Shown: positions 6,604 to 18,155 of the stretch, one piece after another
Layout: the number at the start of each line of letters is the position of its first letter
Numbering within the stretch: the stretch's first letter is position 1
Origin: a virus
Direction: 5' to 3' (one strand)
Virus record (IMG/VR): IMGVR_UViG_3300009790_000105
Coordinates: 1-20,421 of that record
Length of the DNA stretch: 20,421 nucleotides
Notes under the pieces: model-generated
What the model was told of the DNA's origin: nothing
The model's database searches: none
The model's input: the letters and a program-made list of their open reading frames with translations, nothing else
Made by a program: the position numbers and the translations under genes

Positions 6604-9600
6604 ATGACAAACTCATTTCAACCAGGCAATGCTATAAGAGCAGATGCTCTGAACGAAAACTTTGATCAAGTACTTCTATCAATACAAGAATTAGAAGGTA
6701 AGGTCACAAACGCTGAAGGGACAATGACGGGTCCACAAGGAACCCAAGGTGTACAAGGTCCAACTGGTGCAACTGGTGCAACTGGATCTACAGGTCCAAC
6801 AGGACCGACTGGAGCTACAGGTGCTACAGGTGCAGCAGGTCCAAAAGGTGATACAGGATCACAAGGTCCAATAGGTCCAGCTGGTCCAACAGGAGCAACG
6901 GGTTCTACTGGAGCTACTGGTCCTAAAGGTGATGTAGGAACAGGTTTATTACTAAAAGGTTCCTATGCCTACACAGGTGCGCCAAATACATCCACAACTG
7001 GAAGTAGCCCTAGTCAAGGTGATTTATGGAAGTCTAGCAATAATGATTGTTGGGCTTATGATGGATCAGCTTGGACTAATGTAGGAGCTATAGCAGGTAG
7101 TGCTGGTGCTCAAGGTGCTACAGGTGCTCAAGGTGCAACTGGTGCAACTGGTGCTCAGGGGGCTACTGGAGCCACAGGTGCTCAAGGTCCACAAGGTGAG
7201 ACAGGTGCTCAAGGTCCAGCTGGTGGTCAAGGTCCAAAAGGTGATACTGGAGCTACTGGTACAACAGGAGCTACTGGTCCTCAAGGTGCAACTGGTTTGC
7301 AAGGTCCAGCTGGTACAGCTACTACTATGGAGTCGCTTACTAATGTAAGTATCTCTAGTGTATCTGCTTTAGATAGACTTGAATATGATGGTACTAACTG
7401 GGTAAATAAAGGATTAGCTGAAGGTGATACTCATTATAATGTTATAGCTAACGTAGCTGCTATACCAGATTTTACTGTAGCTAGTATATCCGTAACTAAT
7501 GGTGGTTCTGGATATTCAAGTGCTCCTACAGTAACGATCTCTAACACATCAGGTAGTACAGGATCAAATGCAGCTGGTACAGCAGTTTTAGATGGTAATA
7601 CAGTAAAAAGCGTTACTATAACTAATGCTGGTTCTGGTTACTCAGCTGGTGCTACTATTGCCTTCTCAGGAGGTGGTGGATCAGGAGCTGCAGCAACAGC
7701 TACTACTAATCCTACAAATGGTACAGCAATTGAAATAACAGATTCATCTGGTATTCAATCATTTACTCCTCTGTCTGGAATGCCATCAGGCTTCACAGGC
7801 GATTCAGGTTTATCAGTAAGAATACAATATGATACTAGCGGTACTGATACATGGAAGTGGAAGAGATACTTTGCTAACACTCCAGAAACTAGATATGCAT
7901 CTATAGCTGGTGAGACATTTACAGGTGCAGTTAACCTTGATGAGAACTTAACTGTTAAAAACAACAAAGAAGTTAGAATTAGTGAAGCTACTTCAAATGG
8001 TAGTAACTATATAGCTTTAAAAGCACCAACATCATTATCTTCAAATGTTACCTATCAACTACCTGTTGATGGTAATAATAATGAGATATTGAAAACTGAT
8101 GGTAATGGTAATTTATCGTTTGCTACAGCATCAAGTCTAACTCAATCTGGTATTACTGAAATATCAGAGGATACTACACCTGAACTTGGTGGTGATTTAA
8201 GTGTCAATAATAAGTCAATTATCTCACCAACTGGTAATGCAAATATAAATATCACTCCACACGGTACAGGTAAAGTTGTTTTAAGTGGTCAGAAGTTTCC
8301 GCATACTGATGGAAACCAAAATCAAATTTTAAAAACTGACGGACAGAATAATCTAAGTTGGACAAACGGTTACTCGATAGCTAATGATCTTCTTGATGAA
8401 GATAACTTCAATACTAACAGTGATACAAAACCTGCTAGTCAACAGTCGATCAAAGCTTATGTAGATGCTAATGATTTATCTTTAATTGATGAAGATAACT
8501 TTGCTTCTGATAGTCCTACACGTCCTCCTAGTCAACAGTCAGTTAAAGCTTATGTAGATGCTAAAACTTATCCTGCTAATTTAGGTAATGCTGCCTCAGG
8601 TACAGCTTTAACAGTTACATCTAGTTCAGGTACTAACACTAATCTTCCAGCTGCTACAACCTCAGCTTGGGGTGTGATGACAGATGAAGATAAGACAAAG
8701 TTAGATGGTATTGAAACAGCAGCCACAGCTGATCAGACTGATGCAGAAATTAGAACTGCTGTTGGAAATGCTAGTGATTCAAATGTATTCACTGATGCCG
8801 ACCATACAAAGTTAGATGGAATAGCTACCTCAGCTAATAACTATACACACCCTAACCATAGTGGTGAGGTTACATCTACTGCAGATGGAGCTACAGTTAT
8901 TACTGATGATACTGTTGATGAAGCTAATTTAAAGATTAGTAATGCTGGTAGTAATGGACAATTCTTATCTAAACAATCTGGTAATACAGGTGGTTTAACT
9001 TGGGCTACACCAACCGATACGACATATACAGCTGGTACAGGAATATCTATTAGTGGTACGACTATCTCTGCAGGTGCTTTAGCAATAACTACAGTACAAA
9101 CTGCAGCCAACCAATCTGCTCATTTAGGATTAACAGCAGAACAAGGTGATGTAGTTGTTAGATCTGATGAAAACAAATCGTATATCCATAACGGTGGATC
9201 AGCAGGTACTATGGCTGATTACACATTACTTGCTACACCTACAGATGCTGTATTAAGTGTCAATGGAAATACAGGTGCTATTACAGCTGCACAAATAGCT
9301 ACAGCAGTAGAGGCAGCTAGTGATTCAAATACATTTACTGATGCAGATCATACGAAGCTAAACGCAATAGAAGCTTCAGCTACCGCTGATCAAACAGCTG
9401 CTGAAATTGTTGCTCTTGTAGCTGATCAAACTATTGCTCCTTCAACCATTGATATGGAGGACAGTGAAAAGATTCTGCTTGGGACAGGTGATGATCTCCA
9501 GATCTATTACACAGGTTCCGCAGGATGGATATATCAATCTGAATCAGGTAATGACGTAACTTTAGGAGCTAATGCGGGTAATGTTTGGTTAAGGACAGGA

Positions 9601-10548
9601 GCTTCCGCTAATGATGATGCAATTAAGTGCGTTTCTGACGGAGCCGTAGAACTCTATTACGACGGTGTGAAGAAGTTTTATACAGGTAGTGCAGGAGTTG
9701 CTTTTGTTGGTGATTTATACGGAAATGATAATGAGAAAGTTCGATTAGGTACTAGCCAAGATTTGGAGATCTTCCATAATGGGACATACTCAGCAATACG
9801 AGCAAATACTTTATATTTACAAGATAATAATGGGAGTGGTCATGCCTACATAACATGTGTTGCTGATGGTGCTGTAGGACTTAGGTATGACAACAGTCAG
9901 AAGCTTGCGACACGTTCCGATGGTTGTGAAGTTTTTGGGAATATAGTTTGCGATGGACATTACGAGGCAAATGATAACTCAGAAATAAGATTAGGCTTGC
10001 ATGATGATTTAAAGCTCTACCATGATGGATTGGATTCATACCTTACTAATGCTACAGGAGAGCTAAGGGTTTATAGCAACGGAGGAATACTTCGTATGCG
10101 AGCTAAAACCAATGAGAACGCTATCCTTGCAATACCTGACGGAGCCGTAGAACTCTATTACGATAACGTTAAGAAGTTTGAGACTACGAGTACTGGTGTT
10201 TCTGTCACTGGAACGGTATCAGACGGCAGAGGAAATCTAAGAAGACTTTCTGGAATAAATACAACAGGTGCTTATACTGTAGTAGCTGGAGATAGTGGAA
10301 CTCAAGGTAGATATCTTTTAACTAGTCATGATATTACCTTGGCAAATGGTATGACTGCTGGAGATATGATAACGATTATCAATAATGGTAGTAGTGCTAT
10401 ATCAATTAATGCTTCTACAAATAGTGTTACGCTGACTAATTCAGCAGATGGTGCTACAGGTAATAGAACTCTTGCAGCTAAGGGTATGGTGACAGTTTTA
10501 TATGTAGGAAGTGCGACTGCCTTTATTTCAGGTGCGGGGTTAAGTTAA
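6604..10548 (+). CDS. Long collagen-repeat tail fiber
   Basis: This is a 1314-aa modular fiber. Residues 1-42 carry an [16 protein letters not shown] segment of a kind seen at the start of many cyanophage fibers, probably the attachment end. Two perfect Gly-X-Y collagen-like blocks follow at 43-112 (23 triplets) and 165-237 (24 triplets), separated by a 50-residue Trp/Tyr module. After that come a G-S-G-Y repeat region (about 296-350), a tandem pair of about 31-residue repeats containing D-E-D-N-F and S-Q-Q-S-[IV]-K-A-Y-V-D-A (about 595-655), copies of D-A-D-H-T-K-L (about 735 and 918), and at about 950-1205 several copies of a module containing D-G-A-V-[EG]-L-[YR]-Y-D. The collagen blocks should trimerise into a rigid rod. 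The last base of its stop is the A of the next ATG, so the downstream adhesin is probably translated with it. Confidence 0.85.
6730..6939 (+). repeat. Collagen-like Gly-X-Y coding repeat, block 1
   Basis: This stretch encodes 23 consecutive Gly-X-Y triplets plus a closing Gly (residues 43-112 of the long fiber), dominated by G-A-T, G-P-T and G-P-K. At DNA level it is a degenerate 9-base periodicity around ggtgcaact or ggtccaaca. Collagen-like blocks in phage fibers form trimeric rods. Confidence 0.9.
7096..7314 (+). repeat. Collagen-like Gly-X-Y coding repeat, block 2
   Basis: This stretch encodes 24 consecutive triplets plus a closing Gly (residues 165-237), richer in G-A-Q and G-A-T than block 1. 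The near-identical 9-base units, such as ggtgctcaa followed by ggtgcaact, make this stretch prone to length change by slippage or recombination. Confidence 0.9.
9637..9662 (+). repeat. 26-bp direct repeat, copy 1 (fiber module)
   Basis: The 26 bases here recur exactly at 10138-10163, 501 bases (167 codons) downstream and in frame. They encode D-G-A-V-E-L-Y-Y-D of the fiber's C-terminal repeat module. A third, diverged copy lies between them (about 9861-9891). Confidence 0.9.
10138..10163 (+). repeat. 26-bp direct repeat, copy 2 (fiber module)
   Basis: Exact copy of 9637-9662 within the same fiber gene. It is identical even at synonymous positions, unlike the third, diverged copy, which suggests recent duplication or gene conversion. 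Confidence 0.9.
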
Positions 10549-12525: not shown

Positions 12526-12788
12526 AAGATGCTGTAGAGGATAAAGAACATCAAATAGAGGTGCTTGGAACATTCGTGAGGCTCGGAGTAGTCGTATGGT
12601 CTGGGTTCATCATCACTATGAATTATGTCGAGTTACCAATGGTGAAGAAATCAGGTAACTCAGATATCACGTTCGTTGCCAGTGTCTTTACGGGCGCACT
12701 TGCAACATTCGGCTTGACCACTGGTAATAAGAACAATGGCAAACCACAAACCGTAGACTGTCCTATGGCTAAGAAAAAAGAAACATGA
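12477..12788 (+). CDS. Holin-like two-span membrane protein
   Basis: This 103-aa protein has a charged N-terminus, a first hydrophobic span at about 33-50 (L-G-V-V-V-W-S-G-F-I-I-T-M), a second at about 63-82 (F-V-A-S-V-F-T-G-A-L-A-T-F-G-L), and a charged C-terminal tail. Two spans with both ends likely cytoplasmic is the class II holin layout. In T7 the holin gene (17.5) lies between fiber and small terminase, the same place as here, so holin is my best guess, but holins have little conserved sequence. The ATG lies within the previous gene (49-base overlap, different frame) without an obvious ribosome-binding site. Its stop overlaps the next ATG (ATGA at 12785-12788). Confidence 0.55.
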   Translation: MEGKPPEKEKGVLGKLKDAVEDKEHQIEVLGTFVRLGVVVWSGFIITMNYVELPMVKKSGNSDITFVASVFTGALATFGLTTGNKNNGKPQTVDCPMAKKKET

Positions 12789-13156
12789 AGAAATGGCTTT
12801 TACTTTTCCTACTGGTTTCACCCACGGTAGTAAAAGCTGAATTAGTACAACCCAACTTCACCCAGGGTTCTATGAACAGTACTACAACTACAACTCAAGA
12901 CATAACTGAAGAGATAACAACAACCACCTATGGAGCAGCGTTAAACAAATGGTCTGGGGACAACATAACCCACACCTCAGCAACCTCTGGAGGAATAGCA
13001 GACACCGATTCAATCTTCAATATGACAACAGCTGGTTCCGACTTCTCATTAGAGGTCGTGACACGAGCAGCCAGTCAGGTAATCGAATTAACAGAGATCG
13101 AAAGAACTATCGAAACGGAATCTACTACTGTCTCCTTATCAGTCTTCTCTCAATAG
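12785..13156 (+). CDS. Secreted Thr/Ser-rich protein with signal peptide
   Basis: The 123-aa product starts with a textbook Sec signal: M-K-K, a W-L-L-L-F-L-L core, then V-V-K-A with cleavage expected after Ala18. The mature part of about 105 residues is rich in Thr and Ser (T-T-T-T-T-Q and T-T-T-T-Y runs) with no cysteine and no recognised domain. It is coupled to the holin-like gene by an ATGA overlap, and its 3' end overlaps the coding region of a second secreted protein in another frame. Placement in the small-gene cluster suggests action in the periplasm or at the envelope during lysis, or attachment to the virion. It lacks a lipobox, so it is not a typical outer-membrane spanin. Confidence 0.6.
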   Translation: MKKWLLLFLLVSPTVVKAELVQPNFTQGSMNSTTTTTQDITEEITTTTYGAALNKWSGDNITHTSATSGGIADTDSIFNMTTAGSDFSLEVVTRAASQVIELTEIERTIETESTTVSLSVFSQ

Positions 13157-13728
13157 CTCCTGTTAAGGCAGAAGGTGAAACTAATAACACGTCTAATCCC
13201 GTTGCAGCAGCTACTGGGAATGTCACAAATCAGGCGGTTCAATTCCAGAACAATGGTGCTCCTTCAAGGCAGCACTACGGTTCTGGGGTTAGCTGTAATG
13301 GTTCAACGATGACGTTTAGCCCATTCTATATGGGTAATCATACAAAACCTTTTGACGAAGAGATGTCACAGAGAAGCTACACCGTAGCTGAGAACTGGGG
13401 AGGTCAAATCAACTTCATGTTTCCTTTGGATCGTAGAGGTTTAGCACAATGTAGACGTATAGCCAAACGGCAAGAAGAAAAGATGAGGCTTGATTATGAG
13501 CTTGTACGTGTATTGAAATGTGCTGAACTTCAACGAAAGGGATTCATGTTAGCTGAGGGTACTCGTGTTTATGACATGTGTAATGACGTAGTACCAATCG
13601 TTGAATACAAAAAAAATAAAGAGGATGCTGTTAAAGAGTATCTAGAAACAAAATGTACTCCTAAAAAAAAGAAATTCCTTTGGAGCGAACAGGAGTACGA
13701 ATGTCCAATTACCACTAAACAAGAATGA
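12949..13728 (+). CDS. Secreted Cys-containing protein, start uncertain (probably near 13087)
   Basis: Coordinates run from the only in-frame ATG (259 aa), but the sequence argues for a later start. Residues 58-70 are a hydrophobic core preceded by a basic N-R-D-R-K-N-Y-R stretch and followed by P-V-K-A, a Sec signal peptide with cleavage after residue 74. It would be buried 57 residues inside the protein if translation began at 12949. No ATG, GTG or TTG lies between; an ATT at 13087, with AGG 8 bases upstream, would give a normal 28-residue signal. The mature part contains G-N-V-T-N-Q-A-V-Q, a motif I recall from secreted proteins of T4-like cyanophages, a Y-G-S-G-V-S-C-N-G segment, six cysteines and a basic helical stretch (168-195). 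Function is unknown. Its stop overlaps the next ATG. Confidence 0.55.
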   Translation: MVWGQHNPHLSNLWRNSRHRFNLQYDNSWFRLLIRGRDTSSQSGNRINRDRKNYRNGIYYCLLISLLSIAPVKAEGETNNTSNPVAAATGNVTNQAVQFQNNGAPSRQHYGSGVSCNGSTMTFSPFYMGNHTKPFDEEMSQRSYTVAENWGGQINFMFPLDRRGLAQCRRIAKRQEEKMRLDYELVRVLKCAELQRKGFMLAEGTRVYDMCNDVVPIVEYKKNKEDAVKEYLETKCTPKKKKFLWSEQEYECPITTKQE

Positions 13729-13826
13729 GTACATTAAGTGATCAATGGCAAAAAGAAGTAGAAGAAAAAGCCAAACCTAAGAAAAAAAAATCTACTAAAA
13801 AAACAGTAAAGACAAATGAAAGTTAG
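13725..13826 (+). CDS. 33-aa lysine-rich microprotein
   Basis: This frame starts at an ATGA overlap with the previous stop and ends inside the next gene. The N-terminal half (M-S-T-L-S-D-Q-W-Q-K-E-V-E-E-K) is a short amphipathic helix and the C-terminal half is almost all Lys, Thr and Ser. Its support is the gap-free chain of overlaps on both sides, not similarity. It may be a real microprotein or simply keep ribosomes moving to the next start. Confidence 0.45.
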   Translation: MSTLSDQWQKEVEEKAKPKKKKSTKKTVKTNES

Positions 13827-13995
13827 AATCGCAATATTTGTCTTAGTTATTGCAGGTGCGTCGTTCGGTATCCATAAGGTAAACGAATTCAGAAACTCAC
13901 CATCTGGTCAACTAATAGAAACACTTCAAGAACGTAAACAACTAATTGAGAGCTATACAAAATCACCAACTATTCAACTCCCACTAAGCAAATGA
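13816..13995 (+). CDS. 59-aa single-span membrane microprotein
   Basis: M-K-V-R is followed by a hydrophobic span (I-A-I-F-V-L-V-I-A-G-A-S-F-G-I) and then a short polar, helical tail with Q-L-I-E-T-L-Q-E-R-K-Q-L-I-E. This N-in, C-out layout with a helical tail is what a minimal inner-membrane spanin or an antiholin would look like, but at 59 aa it is shorter than usual spanins. It overlaps both neighbours (11 bases upstream, ATGA downstream). I cannot assign a family. Confidence 0.5.
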   Translation: MKVRIAIFVLVIAGASFGIHKVNEFRNSPSGQLIETLQERKQLIESYTKSPTIQLPLSK

Positions 13996-14168: not shown

Positions 14169-14343
14169 ACCTAAAAGTGACTACTCAAGGAGAGGTGGTC
14201 AAGCAGCCTTATTAAGAGATCTCGAAGAACACAATCTAAAAGAATATGGTACTAAATCACCATATAAAAAATCTATAACTGAAGCTTTAGGAATAAAGAA
14301 AAAAAAGAAAAACAAAGAAAAACTTAAAACGAATAAGAAATGA
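14152..14343 (+). CDS. 63-aa basic protein of unknown function
   Basis: A 63-aa, very lysine-rich protein. The middle (R-G-G-Q-A-A-L-L-R-D-L-E-E-H-N) is probably helical and the last 15 residues are nearly all Lys, Asn and Glu. It overlaps the preceding microgene by 17 bases, and its TGA overlaps the ATG of the small terminase gene, so the two are probably translated together. The charge suggests nucleic-acid contact, but no domain is recognised. Confidence 0.55.
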   Translation: MPKKFKPKSDYSRRGGQAALLRDLEEHNLKEYGTKSPYKKSITEALGIKKKKKNKEKLKTNKK

Positions 14344-14582
14344 AGAAACGAGCCACTGAAGACCAATTTAACGAACTACATAACCTTGTTACCTCTGAGT
14401 TTCTAAAGCGAGTCAAGAGTGGCGAAGCTTCTACTCAAGATCTCAAGGCAGCCTGTGAATGGCTTAAAACAAATGACATTAGCGGTATTGCTATTGACGG
14501 CAACCCTCTTTCTAAATTGGCAGCAGTCATGCCAAAGGTAGACCCCGAACTCGTACAACAGAGACTTTATGGTAAAAGGTAG
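14340..14582 (+). CDS. Terminase small subunit (T7 gp18-like DNA maturase A)
   Basis: This 80-aa protein is close in size to T7 gp18 (89 aa). Its first half, with L-H-N-L-V-T-S-E-F-L-K-R-V-K-S-G-E-A-S, then a D-L-K-A-A-C-E-W-L-K helix and N-D-I, is a pattern I associate with small terminase subunits of marine T7-like phages. The subunit recognises concatemeric phage DNA and delivers it to the large subunit at the procapsid portal. The family is small and varied, so the call also leans on position: upstream of the large terminase, downstream of the holin-like gene. Unlike T7, about 1.8 kb with three genes separates it from terL. Its ATG overlaps the previous stop, and its last 14 bases overlap the next gene. 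Confidence 0.7.
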   Translation: MKKRATEDQFNELHNLVTSEFLKRVKSGEASTQDLKAACEWLKTNDISGIAIDGNPLSKLAAVMPKVDPELVQQRLYGKR

Positions 14583-14829
14583 CGGAGCCAAATATGCCAA
14601 TGGCAACTTTAAAAATCAACAAAAGGCATACAACAAAACAGAACATGGTCTAAAGATACGAGTAGCAGCAAATAAAGCAGATAGAAAGACAAAACGAAAT
14701 GGTACTGGACATGTGGGTGATAAAGACGACAACTCCCATGTTGAAAAAGGTAAAACCCGTTTAGTTTCTCAATCTAGAAATCGTGCTGGCTTAGGCATTC
14801 ATAAAAGAAGAAAACCTCGTTATACATGA
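14569..14829 (+). CDS. Small basic protein, possible compact His-Me-type nuclease
   Basis: An 86-aa, strongly basic protein rich in Lys, Arg, Asn and Gly. The recognisable part is D-K-D-D-N-S-H (His57), then S-Q-S-R-N-R (Asn71). I recall phage proteins with an S-H ... S-x-N-R pair beside terminase genes, and it also resembles the start and end of an HNH site with the middle shortened. This is a weak resemblance. It overlaps the small terminase gene by 14 bases, and its TGA overlaps the start of the HNH gene, tying it to the packaging group. A DNA-binding role is plausible from charge alone. Confidence 0.5.
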   Translation: MVKGSGAKYANGNFKNQQKAYNKTEHGLKIRVAANKADRKTKRNGTGHVGDKDDNSHVEKGKTRLVSQSRNRAGLGIHKRRKPRYT

Positions 14830-15155
14830 CCCCACTACTACCAACCCCTGATCACTATTTATTCAACCTAATAACCATGACAAATTCAGATGCACGAAAG
14901 CTCTGGAGAAGAGCTATTAAAGAGCACTTCAATTGTACATGTGTTTATTGTGGAAACAACTATGAAATTAATGAACTTACACTCGATCATGTCAAAGCTA
15001 GAACAAATGGCGGAGAGGATCTTACAAGCAATTTGGTCCCCGCCTGTCAATCGTGTAATCAAGGGAAAGGTAGCAGTCATTGGCTCGGATGGATGCGTCA
15101 GACATATGGACGTAACCATACCAGAGAACAACTTATTATAAATCATATTAGTTAA
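14826..15155 (+). CDS. HNH endonuclease
   Basis: This 109-aa protein is a complete zinc-HNH nuclease. The first zinc pair is C39-V-Y-C42, the active-site pair is D54-H55 in L-T-L-D-H-V, then come N-G-G, N69 in T-S-N-L, the second zinc pair C74-Q-S-C77 and N78. Such proteins make nicks or double-strand cuts; next to terminase genes some are needed for packaging (known for HK97 gp74) and others are homing endonucleases. The frame begins at an ATGA overlap at 14826; an alternative ATG at 14877 removes 17 poorly conserved-looking residues and gives a more typical N-terminus. The gene is followed within 10 bases by a Rho-independent terminator, so it closes a transcription unit. Confidence 0.9.
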   Translation: MTPLLPTPDHYLFNLITMTNSDARKLWRRAIKEHFNCTCVYCGNNYEINELTLDHVKARTNGGEDLTSNLVPACQSCNQGKGSSHWLGWMRQTYGRNHTREQLIINHIS

Positions 15156-15161
15156 CTAACC

Positions 15162-15184
15162 GCCTCCGTAAGGGGGCTTTTTTT
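15162..15184 (+). terminator. Rho-independent terminator after the HNH gene
   Basis: A six-pair stem (GCCTCC at 15162-15167 with GGGGGC at 15172-15177, one T-G wobble), a GTAA tetraloop and seven Ts (15178-15184). The T-run ends exactly where the next ATG begins (15185), leaving no room for a separate ribosome-binding site. Confidence 0.85.
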
Positions 15185-16405
15185 ATGTCTGAAATAGTCA
15201 AAGTAGATGGTGCTTGGAATTTAACTCCACAACTTGCTAAAGACATGGGTATGACCCTGTTTCAATTAAAACAGCATTTTGCAAGGGAATACGTTATACC
15301 ATATTTAGCAAAACAGATTGATGATAGAAAGTTAAAAGGTAAAGATAGAAGTGGACAAAAGGGAGCTAGATCAGGTTTTGGTGAGATCTTTATTGATGGT
15401 AAAAAGAAAACAATACAAAATGTAACTGCCTATTTTGATAAACGTGCAGATAACATTACATTTACCGATGTAAAAAAAAATCAAGCAGTTGCACACGATA
15501 GATCTGAAGGTCAGTATGGATTCAACCCAGACACGGTTAAACAGGTAAAATTCTTAGATAATGTTGAGGAATTAAAAGCTGAATTAAAAGAGAGAACTGA
15601 TTTTCCTAAAGGTCCAAACGACGCACGTAATGCTGAGAAAGATTTCCACAATAAAATGAGGAAATTATTTAGAAAGCATTACCGAGGAAGAATTCAATAC
15701 GACCCTAATATAGGTACAAATTACGGTTGGCCTGAAGGTAAATCTCAAAAAGGTTTTATGAAATGGCAACGATATGTCTATAACCGACTAAAAGGTGGAG
15801 ATGGAGATATAGTTCATGTAGGTCACGGTAAACCTGTAAACCAGGAAGGAACCAACGCAGCCTCTAACTTAGCTCTTGAAGATGCTAAATCTAATGTAAG
15901 CACAGGTGCTAAAGAAGGAACTTTTAGACCAGATGAAGAGTTAGAAAATGTTTATGTCTCTCATGGTAAAAGTCTTGCTCTACAAGAGTATCTAGCTTTT
16001 GAAGATGATGAGAATATCTTAACCCCAATGGATCTTCCACCAGAGGATCATGCTAATCTACTTCAAAATGTAGATGAAGATCCCGAAGCTATATTTGCTC
16101 AAGGTCTAGATAAAAGATATAACAGCTCATTCGAGGATAGTAGAACGATTTATGAGAAAGAAAATAAACCACTTACACAAGTTCAAGCCGCTTTAGAAGC
16201 TTTCGGTAAAAGTGAATATATGAATTATTTAACAGGTGGTGCATCAGGTCAAATAGTAGATGCAAATAGAACGTTAAATAGTTTGTCTAAGGGAAATATA
16301 CCAGAAGCTGCTATGAATGTAGCTCCTTTATTAATTAACGCTTCAACTATCACAACTATCAGCCCTTTAAAAGAGACTGAGAAGTACTTAAAAGCTGCTC
16401 AATGA
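15185..16405 (+). CDS. 406-aa packaging-region protein with HNH-like site
   Basis: I do not recognise this as a named family. Residues 1-135 are Lys-rich with strand segments, 140-205 are basic and helical (F-H-N-K-M-R-K-L-F-R-K-H-Y-R), and 240-406 are acidic then Ala-rich. Residues 209-240 hold what I read as a His-Me finger: H214 in H-V-G-H-G, N228 in A-A-S-N-L, and N237 in A-K-S-N. The spacing, 14 and then 9 residues, equals that of H55, N69 and N78 in the HNH protein just upstream, but there are no zinc cysteines. It could thus be a packaging-linked or virion-packaged nuclease. The ATG at 15185 touches a terminator T-run and lacks a ribosome-binding site; Met21 (15245) and Met23 (15251) are fallback starts. 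The large terminase follows 10 bases later. Confidence 0.65.
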   Translation: MSEIVKVDGAWNLTPQLAKDMGMTLFQLKQHFAREYVIPYLAKQIDDRKLKGKDRSGQKGARSGFGEIFIDGKKKTIQNVTAYFDKRADNITFTDVKKNQAVAHDRSEGQYGFNPDTVKQVKFLDNVEELKAELKERTDFPKGPNDARNAEKDFHNKMRKLFRKHYRGRIQYDPNIGTNYGWPEGKSQKGFMKWQRYVYNRLKGGDGDIVHVGHGKPVNQEGTNAASNLALEDAKSNVSTGAKEGTFRPDEELENVYVSHGKSLALQEYLAFEDDENILTPMDLPPEDHANLLQNVDEDPEAIFAQGLDKRYNSSFEDSRTIYEKENKPLTQVQAALEAFGKSEYMNYLTGGASGQIVDANRTLNSLSKGNIPEAAMNVAPLLINASTITTISPLKETEKYLKAAQ

Positions 16406-16415
16406 TTAAACACAC

Positions 16416-18155
16416 ATGACCAACCCTTTAGAGGCCTTACAGGACGATTTCAAGCTGTTTCTGACCGCTTTATGGGAACAGCTTGAACTCCCTCCACCAA
16501 CAAGAGCACAATTCGCAATTGCTGACTACCTACAACACGGACCTAAACGTCTTCAAATCCAAGCCTTCCGAGGAGTCGGTAAAAGTTGGATTACTGGAGC
16601 GTTCGTGTTGTGGACATTATTCAACGACAGTGAAAGAAAGATCATGATTATCTCTGCCTCTAAAGAGAGAGCAGACAACATGTCTATCTTCCTACAAAAA
16701 CTAATTATTGAGACACCATGGTTAACACACCTAAGACCAAAAAGCGACGAGGCAAGGTGGAGTCGTATCTCCTTCGACGTACAATGCTCGCCTCATCAGG
16801 CTCCCAGCGTAAAAAGCGTTGGTATTACTGGGCAACTAACTGGTTCTCGTGCAGATCTCATGGTCCTGGACGACATAGAAGTACCAGGAAACAGTATGAC
16901 GGAGTTGATGCGTGAAAAACTTCTTCAACTTTGCACAGAAGCCGAAAGTATCCTTACCCCCAAAAGCGATAGCCGTATTTGCTACCTTGGGACTCCTCAG
17001 ACTGTTTTTACTGTTTATCGTAAGTTGGCAGAGCGTAACTACCGTCCGTTCGTTTGGCCAAGTAGATACCCAAGAAAAGACAAACTCACTAAGTACGAAG
17101 GACTACTAGCACCACAGATACAAGAAGACCTAGAACAAGGTGTAGACGAATGGAGTGTAACCGACCCTGATCGCTTCGCAGAAGACGACCTCCTAGAGCG
17201 TGAAGCAGCTATGGGTCGTAGCAACTACATGTTGCAGTTCCAATTAGATACAAGTTTAAGTGATGCAGAGAAATTCCCTCTTAAGATGGCTGATCTTATC
17301 GTTACCAGTGTTAACCCTAAGTCTGGTCCCGATCAAATCATCTGGTGCTCAGACCCAAAAAACGTTATTAAAGACTTACCCACAGTCGGTCTCCCAGGAG
17401 ATTACTTTTACTCTCCTATGCAACTCCAAGGAGAATGGTCCAACTATTCAGAAACAATATGCAGCGTCGATCCATCAGGTAGAGGAACTGACGAAACAGC
17501 CGCAGCATTCATATCTCAGAAAAACGGCTTCCTATTCTTGCATGAAATGCGTGCTTACAGAGACGGGTACTCTGATAACACCTTGCTCAATATTCTCAGA
17601 GGATGTAAAAAATACAACGTCACTAAACTAGTAATTGAAACTAACTTCGGTGATGGAATCGTAGGTGAACTATTCAAGAAACACCTACAAATGACAGGTC
17701 AAAATATAGACATAGAAGAGGTACGTGCAAATGTACGAAAAGAAGATAGGATTATTGATTCTCTTGAGCCTGTCCTTAATCAGCATCGTCTCGTTATCGA
17801 TAAGTCAGTCATCGAATGGGATTACAAATCTAACCCAGACGAAGCTCCAGAAAAAAGACTCATGTACATGCTCTTCTACCAAATGGGTAGAATGTGTAGA
17901 GAAAAAGGAGCAATTAAACATGACGACAGATTAGATTGCCTTGCTCAAGGTGTTAAGTACTACACAGATGCTCTATCTATATCTGCTCATGAAACCGTTA
18001 AACAACGTAAACGAGATGAATGGGCTTCAATGATGGAAGAATTCTTAGATAATCCTACTAACAGTGCTAATCATATGGTCTTCGGTATGGATAAAGACCA
18101 AAGAGACCAAGCTAATTTAATCAAAGACAACAAGTCAGTCCACACCTGGGTTTAG
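16416..18155 (+). CDS. terL: Terminase large subunit (T7 gp19-like)
   Basis: This 579-aa protein matches T7 gp19 (586 aa) in size and motif order. The ATPase domain has a Walker A at 51-58 (F-R-G-V-G-K-S-W), a Walker B at 148-155 (L-M-V-L-D-D-I-E) and a coupling motif at 191-195 (L-G-T-P-Q). The C-terminal RNase H-like nuclease has its acidic residues at D354 (C-S-V-D-P-S-G-R-G), E410 (V-I-E-T-N-F-G-D-G) and around D505/D509 (H-D-D-R-L-D). It translocates DNA into the procapsid and cuts the concatemer; in T7 relatives the cuts create the direct terminal repeats. The sequence is intact and slightly G+C-richer than neighbouring genes. It is followed by a structured non-coding region and then the metabolic genes. 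Confidence 0.97.
   Translation: MTNPLEALQDDFKLFLTALWEQLELPPPTRAQFAIADYLQHGPKRLQIQAFRGVGKSWITGAFVLWTLFNDSERKIMIISASKERADNMSIFLQKLIIETPWLTHLRPKSDEARWSRISFDVQCSPHQAPSVKSVGITGQLTGSRADLMVLDDIEVPGNSMTELMREKLLQLCTEAESILTPKSDSRICYLGTPQTVFTVYRKLAERNYRPFVWPSRYPRKDKLTKYEGLLAPQIQEDLEQGVDEWSVTDPDRFAEDDLLEREAAMGRSNYMLQFQLDTSLSDAEKFPLKMADLIVTSVNPKSGPDQIIWCSDPKNVIKDLPTVGLPGDYFYSPMQLQGEWSNYSETICSVDPSGRGTDETAAAFISQKNGFLFLHEMRAYRDGYSDNTLLNILRGCKKYNVTKLVIETNFGDGIVGELFKKHLQMTGQNIDIEEVRANVRKEDRIIDSLEPVLNQHRLVIDKSVIEWDYKSNPDEAPEKRLMYMLFYQMGRMCREKGAIKHDDRLDCLAQGVKYYTDALSISAHETVKQRKRDEWASMMEEFLDNPTNSANHMVFGMDKDQRDQANLIKDNKSVHTWV

Follow-up and report, generated by a model that had tools for sequence, protein, structure and literature searches.

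The gene that lies between the small zinc HNH gene and terL in the window, the whole 20,421-nucleotide stretch of viral DNA analysed here, is one allele of a polymorphic nuclease slot found throughout the MPP-B cyanopodoviruses. Judged from sequence comparisons, the best supported reading of its 406-aa product is a zinc-free His-Me-finger (HNH-type) nuclease carried in a swappable conflict cassette. We regard it as probable that this reading holds as a whole, namely that the protein is a His-Me nuclease encoded in a polymorphic, recombining slot, that it is a late product made at low level and that it plays a role in conflict. The window belongs to a T7-like cyanopodovirus of the MPP-B group, with a TerL up to 81% identical to that of isolates. 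The features discussed below are collected in Table 1.

Table 1. Features of the slot and its flanks in the window (codons and modules are numbered on the 406-aa protein)
Feature	Position	Strand	Basis
Terminase small subunit	14340..14582	+	Pfam DNA_Packaging_2, E 5.3e-17
Small zinc HNH endonuclease, conserved, left flank of slot	14826..15155	+	Pfam HNH, E 2.2e-12; phage homologues
Terminator-like hairpin GCCTCC-GTAA-GGGGGC + U7, abutting ATG of 406-aa gene	15162..15184	+	G+C stem, GNRA-type loop
406-aa slot protein, putative hidden zinc-free HNH-type (His-Me) nuclease core	15185..16405	+	ORF
N-terminal module, residues 1-95, common to L073, L081 and L086	15185..15469	+	BLAST 48%, 33% and 45%, N-terminus only
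Putative nuclease core (residues 96-310), also in L001 (95-96%) and L002	15470..16114	+	Segment identities
HNH-like segment, residues 196-245	15770..15919	+	phrog_4590 match, E 2.4e-6
H214 codon, predicted catalytic base, end of strand 1	15824..15826	+	Invariant among homologues; strand 210-214
N228 codon	15866..15868	+	Invariant among homologues
N237 codon, within predicted helix 234-242	15893..15895	+	Invariant among homologues; predicted helix
C-terminal module, residues 341-406	16205..16402	+	85% to L040, 27% to L001
Terminase large subunit, right flank of slot	16416..18155	+	Up to 81% identity to cyanopodovirus TerL

An HNH-type site in the 406-aa protein

In the list of open reading frames the 406-aa ORF is flanked directly by the small HNH gene and terL. 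Residues 214, 228 and 237 of its product are His, Asn and Asn, with the spacing H-x13-N-x8-N of H55, N69 and N78 in the small HNH protein, and in both proteins the middle Asn lies within S-N-L (AASNLAL in the 406-aa protein, TSNLVP in the small one). The 406-aa protein has no Cys at all and hence lacks the two CxxC zinc motifs of the HNH packaging proteins of the HK97/GVE2 type. These are the features from which the original prediction had deduced a hidden zinc-free HNH-type site, and inspection of the sequence bears out each of them. In the 406-aa protein and in its homologue from locus L001 the predicted catalytic His is preceded by Gly instead of the usual Asp. Gly also occupies this position in NucA/Serratia-type enzymes. 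The substitution implies that the site may be inactive or may bind metal in a different way. The gene is under purifying selection, with a dN/dS of about 0.25 (against L001, residues 1-310).

The exact spacing arises by chance in shuffled copies of the 406-aa protein with a P of about 0.035 and, since 3.5% of shuffles also have it, is weak evidence when taken alone. Among slot families it is seen in 15 of 151, with 2.25 expected. The triad is retained in all four members of the window's own family: the 406-aa protein itself, the L001 protein (80% identical), the L002 protein (49% over the core), where it takes the classical form D-H...GGTN..NL..N, and the L040 protein (47% over the full length), which also has D-H. 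It is also present in 17 aligned slot fragments, in which the invariance of the His is by construction, the fragments having been selected around it. The segment around the triad matches phrog_4590, a family with no annotated function, which also matches S-RIP2 gp50 and the slot protein of L095, both of which independently match annotated HNH/Endo VII families. Finally, a 40-position HMM built from the HNH-like segments of other slot families, with every member of the window's family excluded, scores residues 211-244 at 30.6 bits, against 7.4 for the best of 2000 shuffles; its independent E value of 1.6e-9 should be read in the light of seeds that were picked by eye. The conservation in L001, L002 and L040, the phrog_4590 match and the leave-family-out HMM together place the triad beyond chance.

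Direct similarity to the neighbouring small HNH protein is suggestive. When the small HNH family, as 137 bona fide proteins, was compared by hhalign, H214 was aligned with H55, N228 with N69 and N237 with N78, at an E value (0.055) that is not significant, and a BLAST comparison of the 406-aa protein with the small HNH protein did not align the active sites. Pfam and NCBIfam searches with the 406-aa protein gave no match, a sequence search of the PDB returned nothing useful, and tblastn with the 406-aa protein and with that of L002 against 50,697 phage records found zero matches.

AlphaFold2, supplied with residues 100-310 and the 17 aligned slot fragments, predicts a strand (210-214) ending at H214, a second strand (229-233) just after N228 and a helix (234-242) containing N237. 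This is the order expected of a beta-beta-alpha element, at a low pLDDT of about 35-55 at the site; a prediction from three sequences reached a pLDDT of 42. Foldseek returned zero hits below E 0.001 in the PDB and the viral library BFVD, and no meaningful match in the PDB. An HNHc protein tops the BFVD list (E 0.19, probability 0.96). The name HNH is borne by 22 of the best 50 BFVD neighbours, and gp54, the slot protein of S-TIP37, comes 11th. The original prediction had named a beta-beta-alpha fold and conservation of the three residues as its tests. Conservation was found in L001, L002 and L040, and the element is predicted where it was proposed, at low model confidence and with weak Foldseek E values. 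Neither of the outcomes that were to refute the prediction was seen, and the proposed site is supported.

A hypervariable slot in MPP-B cyanopodoviruses

The position between the small HNH gene and terL is occupied by a different 'hypothetical protein' in nearly every reference phage (P-SSP7, P-SSP2, S-CBP1, S-CBP3, S-CBP4, S-RIP1, S-RIP2, NATL1A-7, S-SBP1, P-GSP1, S-TIP37, WH11-B, DSL-LC07 and S-B28). When IMG/VR was scanned with three distinct small-HNH queries, the small HNH gene turned up at 219 loci, of which 175 have both flanks. At 60% identity the slot proteins of the 219 loci fall into 151 families, 127 of which have at least 200 aa. Most slots hold a single large ORF. Six are empty, with the HNH gene and terL nearly touching, and the slot gene is therefore dispensable. 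At 37 loci the small HNH protein is at least 80% identical to that of the window and a complete large slot ORF is present; a slot protein related by BLAST to the 406-aa protein was found at two of these. The median TerL identity to the window across loci is 81%.

A term search of a comparative paper on 20 cyanopodoviruses (PMC4646655) found no account of the slot; its variability may have been described elsewhere. In P-SSP10 the transaldolase gene (L019 2146-2811) takes the place of a nuclease in the slot. Small extra nuclease-like genes are also found in slots (L008:3153-3476, L012:2355-2747): a 107-aa protein in S-CBP1 that by eye looks like PD-(D/E)XK, and a second zinc HNH-like protein in S-RIP1 and S-CBP4.

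Mosaic structure of slot proteins

Identity between the 406-aa protein and its relatives changes abruptly along the chain. It is 93-96% to the L001 protein over residues 1-310 and 27-34% beyond; to the L040 protein it is 68% over residues 1-95, 26-36% in the core and 85% over residues 341-406. In L073, L081 and L086 a different, GHH/AHH-like nuclease segment stands behind the shared N-terminus. Against L001, dS is 0.12 in residues 1-95 and 0.03 in residues 96-250, a difference between segments that is consistent with recombination inside the gene. Among the slot proteins there are 95 pairs that have a segment of 40 aa or more in common, at 50% identity or higher, and cannot be aligned elsewhere; the shared segment is C-terminal in 83 pairs, N-terminal in 11 and in the middle in one. 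N-terminal, core and C-terminal segments of slot proteins are thus recombined, and the 406-aa protein is itself such a mosaic. The exchange of a nuclease domain against shared modules, a trait resembling that of polymorphic toxins, is seen in the 406-aa protein and in 95 further mosaic pairs. Linkers of Asn-Gly repeats (GNGNGNG...NGKNG) join the nuclease part and the shared C-terminal module in L046, L054, L062, L060 and L005.

Nuclease-like motifs among slot proteins

Reading of the slot sequences distinguished motifs of the D/G-H..N..N, [AGEL]HH and D-R-G-H-like types. Of the 127 slot families of at least 200 aa, 92 contain one or more of five histidine motifs, against 35.7 in shuffles. In 76 control families taken from the same contigs the count is 27, with 26.3 expected (slot versus control, Fisher P 4e-7). 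For loci fetched after the motif classes had first been noticed it is 51 of 61 families, with 15.6 expected, a set that is not strictly blind since the final list of five was written after these loci too had been viewed. With an earlier list, fixed beforehand, xHH was found in 24 of 54 families (1.2 in shuffles). The signal is carried only by the more specific motifs: broad histidine expressions (GH or DH alone) barely exceed shuffles. About a quarter of slot families have none of the motifs. Pfam and PHROGs recognise few slot domains, so these nuclease-like domains are largely undescribed.

A hairpin fused to the start codon

The U-run of a terminator-like hairpin ends immediately before the ATG of the 406-aa gene (Table 1), and the same succession of hairpin, U-run and ATG precedes 62 of 191 large slot ORFs, including those of L005, L007 and L040. 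There are 25 distinct hairpin sequences (tail included), 22 of them with a GNRA loop. The stem covaries: the fourth pair from the loop appears as G-C, C-G, A-T and T-G, with pairs counted in a register anchored on the loop (MAFFT misaligned the hairpins). Loci with the hairpin, which include P-SSP7 and P-SSP2, are nearer to the lineage of the window (median small-HNH identity 79% versus 58%). In L001 a separate ORF intervenes between the small HNH gene and the hairpin, yet the hairpin remains attached to the slot gene. Neither P-SSP7 nor the window contains another GNRA hairpin followed by a U-run, and P-SSP2 contains one more; on this strand P-SSP7 has a single further terminator, of generic type, after the capsid gene. 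Thermodynamics alone is not decisive (z -1.23), and the case for the hairpin therefore rests on covariation and position. An Rfam search with the hairpin gave zero matches.

The GGGGG in the 3' arm of the hairpin is likely to be the ribosome-binding site of the slot gene. We read the hairpin as a putative leash, which would keep expression of the slot gene low through termination, through hiding of the start site, or both. An alternative role would be that of a putative recombination anchor.

Proposed function

The swappable, reshuffled and often nuclease-like slot proteins suggest a fast-evolving weapon in phage conflict. In the 406-aa protein H214 would act as the general base, and N228 and N237 would be the metal-binding or structural Asn residues of a beta-beta-alpha metal site. 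Within the slot, many kinds of nuclease core would be joined by recombination to N- and C-terminal modules, and whole cassettes would be replaced by homologous recombination through the conserved flanks. The start of the gene lies within the tail of a terminator-like hairpin, and for this reason we propose late, low-level production of the protein. It would then cut the DNA of competing phages, whether co-infecting or superinfecting, or that of the host. A bolder version can be offered only tentatively: virulent T7-like cyanophages might possess, next to the terminase, a polymorphic weapon slot of one gene, with hundreds of recombining His-Me nuclease alleles whose expression is restrained by the hairpin, and might use it to destroy the genomes of rival phages in co-infected marine cyanobacteria, possibly by way of the virion.

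P-SSP7-like podoviruses are a model for infection of Prochlorococcus and Synechococcus. If the proposal is true, more than 100 allele families at a single locus would point to intense warfare between phages (or between phage and host) in the ocean, and functions would become available for the hypothetical proteins P-SSP7 gp50, P-SSP2 gp9, S-RIP2 gp50 and others. The only feature of the P-SSP7 record labelled 'genomic PCR only' (L222 40435-41124) falls inside the slot gene gp50, which may mean that multicopy cloning was difficult. It was set aside as a sign of toxicity, being only suggestive: the entire P-SSP7 genome was later cloned in a single fosmid (PMC3350473).

A close parallel to the slot is found in the HNH/EndoVII toxin classes, which include AHH, LHH and GHH (PMC3482391). 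In both, His-Me subtypes are swapped between otherwise similar proteins, and [AG]HH, LHH and GH motifs are found in slot proteins. In contrast to these toxins, the slot proteins are encoded in the late operon of virulent phages, their variable nuclease can stand at either end or in the middle, neither a secretion leader nor an immunity gene was identified for them, and the Pfam AHH and LHH models do not match them. Immunity to the slot nuclease could be provided by sequence avoidance or by an unrecognised small ORF.

Alternative explanations and known systems

The locus might instead be a hotspot for free-standing homing endonucleases, which cut replaceable alleles and spread through gene conversion, bringing the phage no direct benefit. 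A single insertion site with conserved flanks, the empty slots, the many nuclease types and the modular domains would all fit, and Barth et al. describe a hot spot for HEG-like endonucleases upstream of the terminase in HK97-related phages (PMC10448857). Like the slot, HEG hot spots and HEG-islands are places of genetic exchange that harbour nuclease genes, some of them upstream of the terminase (PMC10448857), and nuclease-based competition between co-infecting phages is known from an HNH homing nuclease whose interference favours one phage in co-infection (PMC11620839). However, the DNA-binding domains known from homing enzymes (NUMOD, AP2, T5orf172) were not recognised in slot proteins, and several slot subtypes resemble the AHH/LHH/GHH classes typical of toxin nucleases (PMC3482391), for which a homing site is unneeded. 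The slot also adds extreme allelic diversity at one site and a hairpin fused to the start codon. We consider homing possible but doubtful as the explanation.

Delivery with the virion, in which a few copies of the protein would be packaged and injected for an early attack on the DNA of the host or of a rival phage, in the manner of MuF toxins or polyvalent proteins, seems to us rather unlikely. In its favour, the gene has late genes around it, different nucleases are attached to interchangeable N- and C-terminal modules, other slot proteins weakly match internal head or virion structural families (E values in the 0.02 range), and the annotation of Syn5 calls gp58, encoded two genes before terL, a structural protein. 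On the other hand, a shared packaging signal was not identified among slot proteins, and their hydrophobicity does not differ from that of control ORFs. Hydrophobic C-termini had been entertained as a membrane signal and were rejected, control ORFs being no different. Precedents exist in polyvalent injected proteins (PMC5512222) and in the MuF polymorphic toxins of temperate phages, over half of which carry a nuclease domain and for which delivery with the phage DNA has been suggested (PMC5576092). MuF toxins are, like the slot proteins, modular and phage-encoded, but the survey found none that had a known toxin domain in virulent phages (PMC5576092), whereas the slot is found in T7-like phages. 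A Pfam search found no MuF domain in the 406-aa protein, and none is among the families listed for 68 slot proteins.

That the 406-aa protein is no nuclease at all, and is a fast-evolving structural or decoration protein in which the H/N/N triad is a coincidence, is improbable: the low AlphaFold2 confidence at the site and the Gly before the His would agree with it, but the conservation of the triad, the leave-family-out HMM and the phrog_4590 match argue against it.

The original prediction had offered two possibilities, a virion-delivered nuclease and a partner in packaging. Such partners of the terminase are the HNH proteins encoded beside it in HK97 and GVE2, which are small, conserved and equipped with zinc [CxxC]2 motifs (PMC5304195); the 406-aa gene is likewise an HNH-type gene beside a terminase gene and lies immediately upstream of terL, but its protein is zinc-free, large, variable and sometimes absent, and since a partner should be conserved with the terminase, slot proteins that are unrelated between phages with about 80% identical TerL, together with the six empty loci, leave this role highly improbable. 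The conserved HNH nuclease on the terminase side is the separate small zinc protein, which may still have a role in packaging. The habit of reading nucleases adjacent to the terminase as packaging components is called into question by this locus.

Other features of the window

Two long ORFs upstream of the terminase genes (12785-13156 and 12949-13728) lie in different frames and have some 200 nt in common, and both match conserved PHROGs (650 for the first, 848/1755 for the second); the arrangement recurs in L001 and L002. A 59-aa ORF at 13816-13995, also present in L001 (L001:1002-1181), has a hydrophobic stretch at its N-terminus; in the copy from L001 a lipobox-like GGC is present, and the product might be a spanin or a small lipoprotein. 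Further upstream, a 1314-aa protein (6604-10548) with collagen-like Gly-X-Y repeats is probably a tail fibre.
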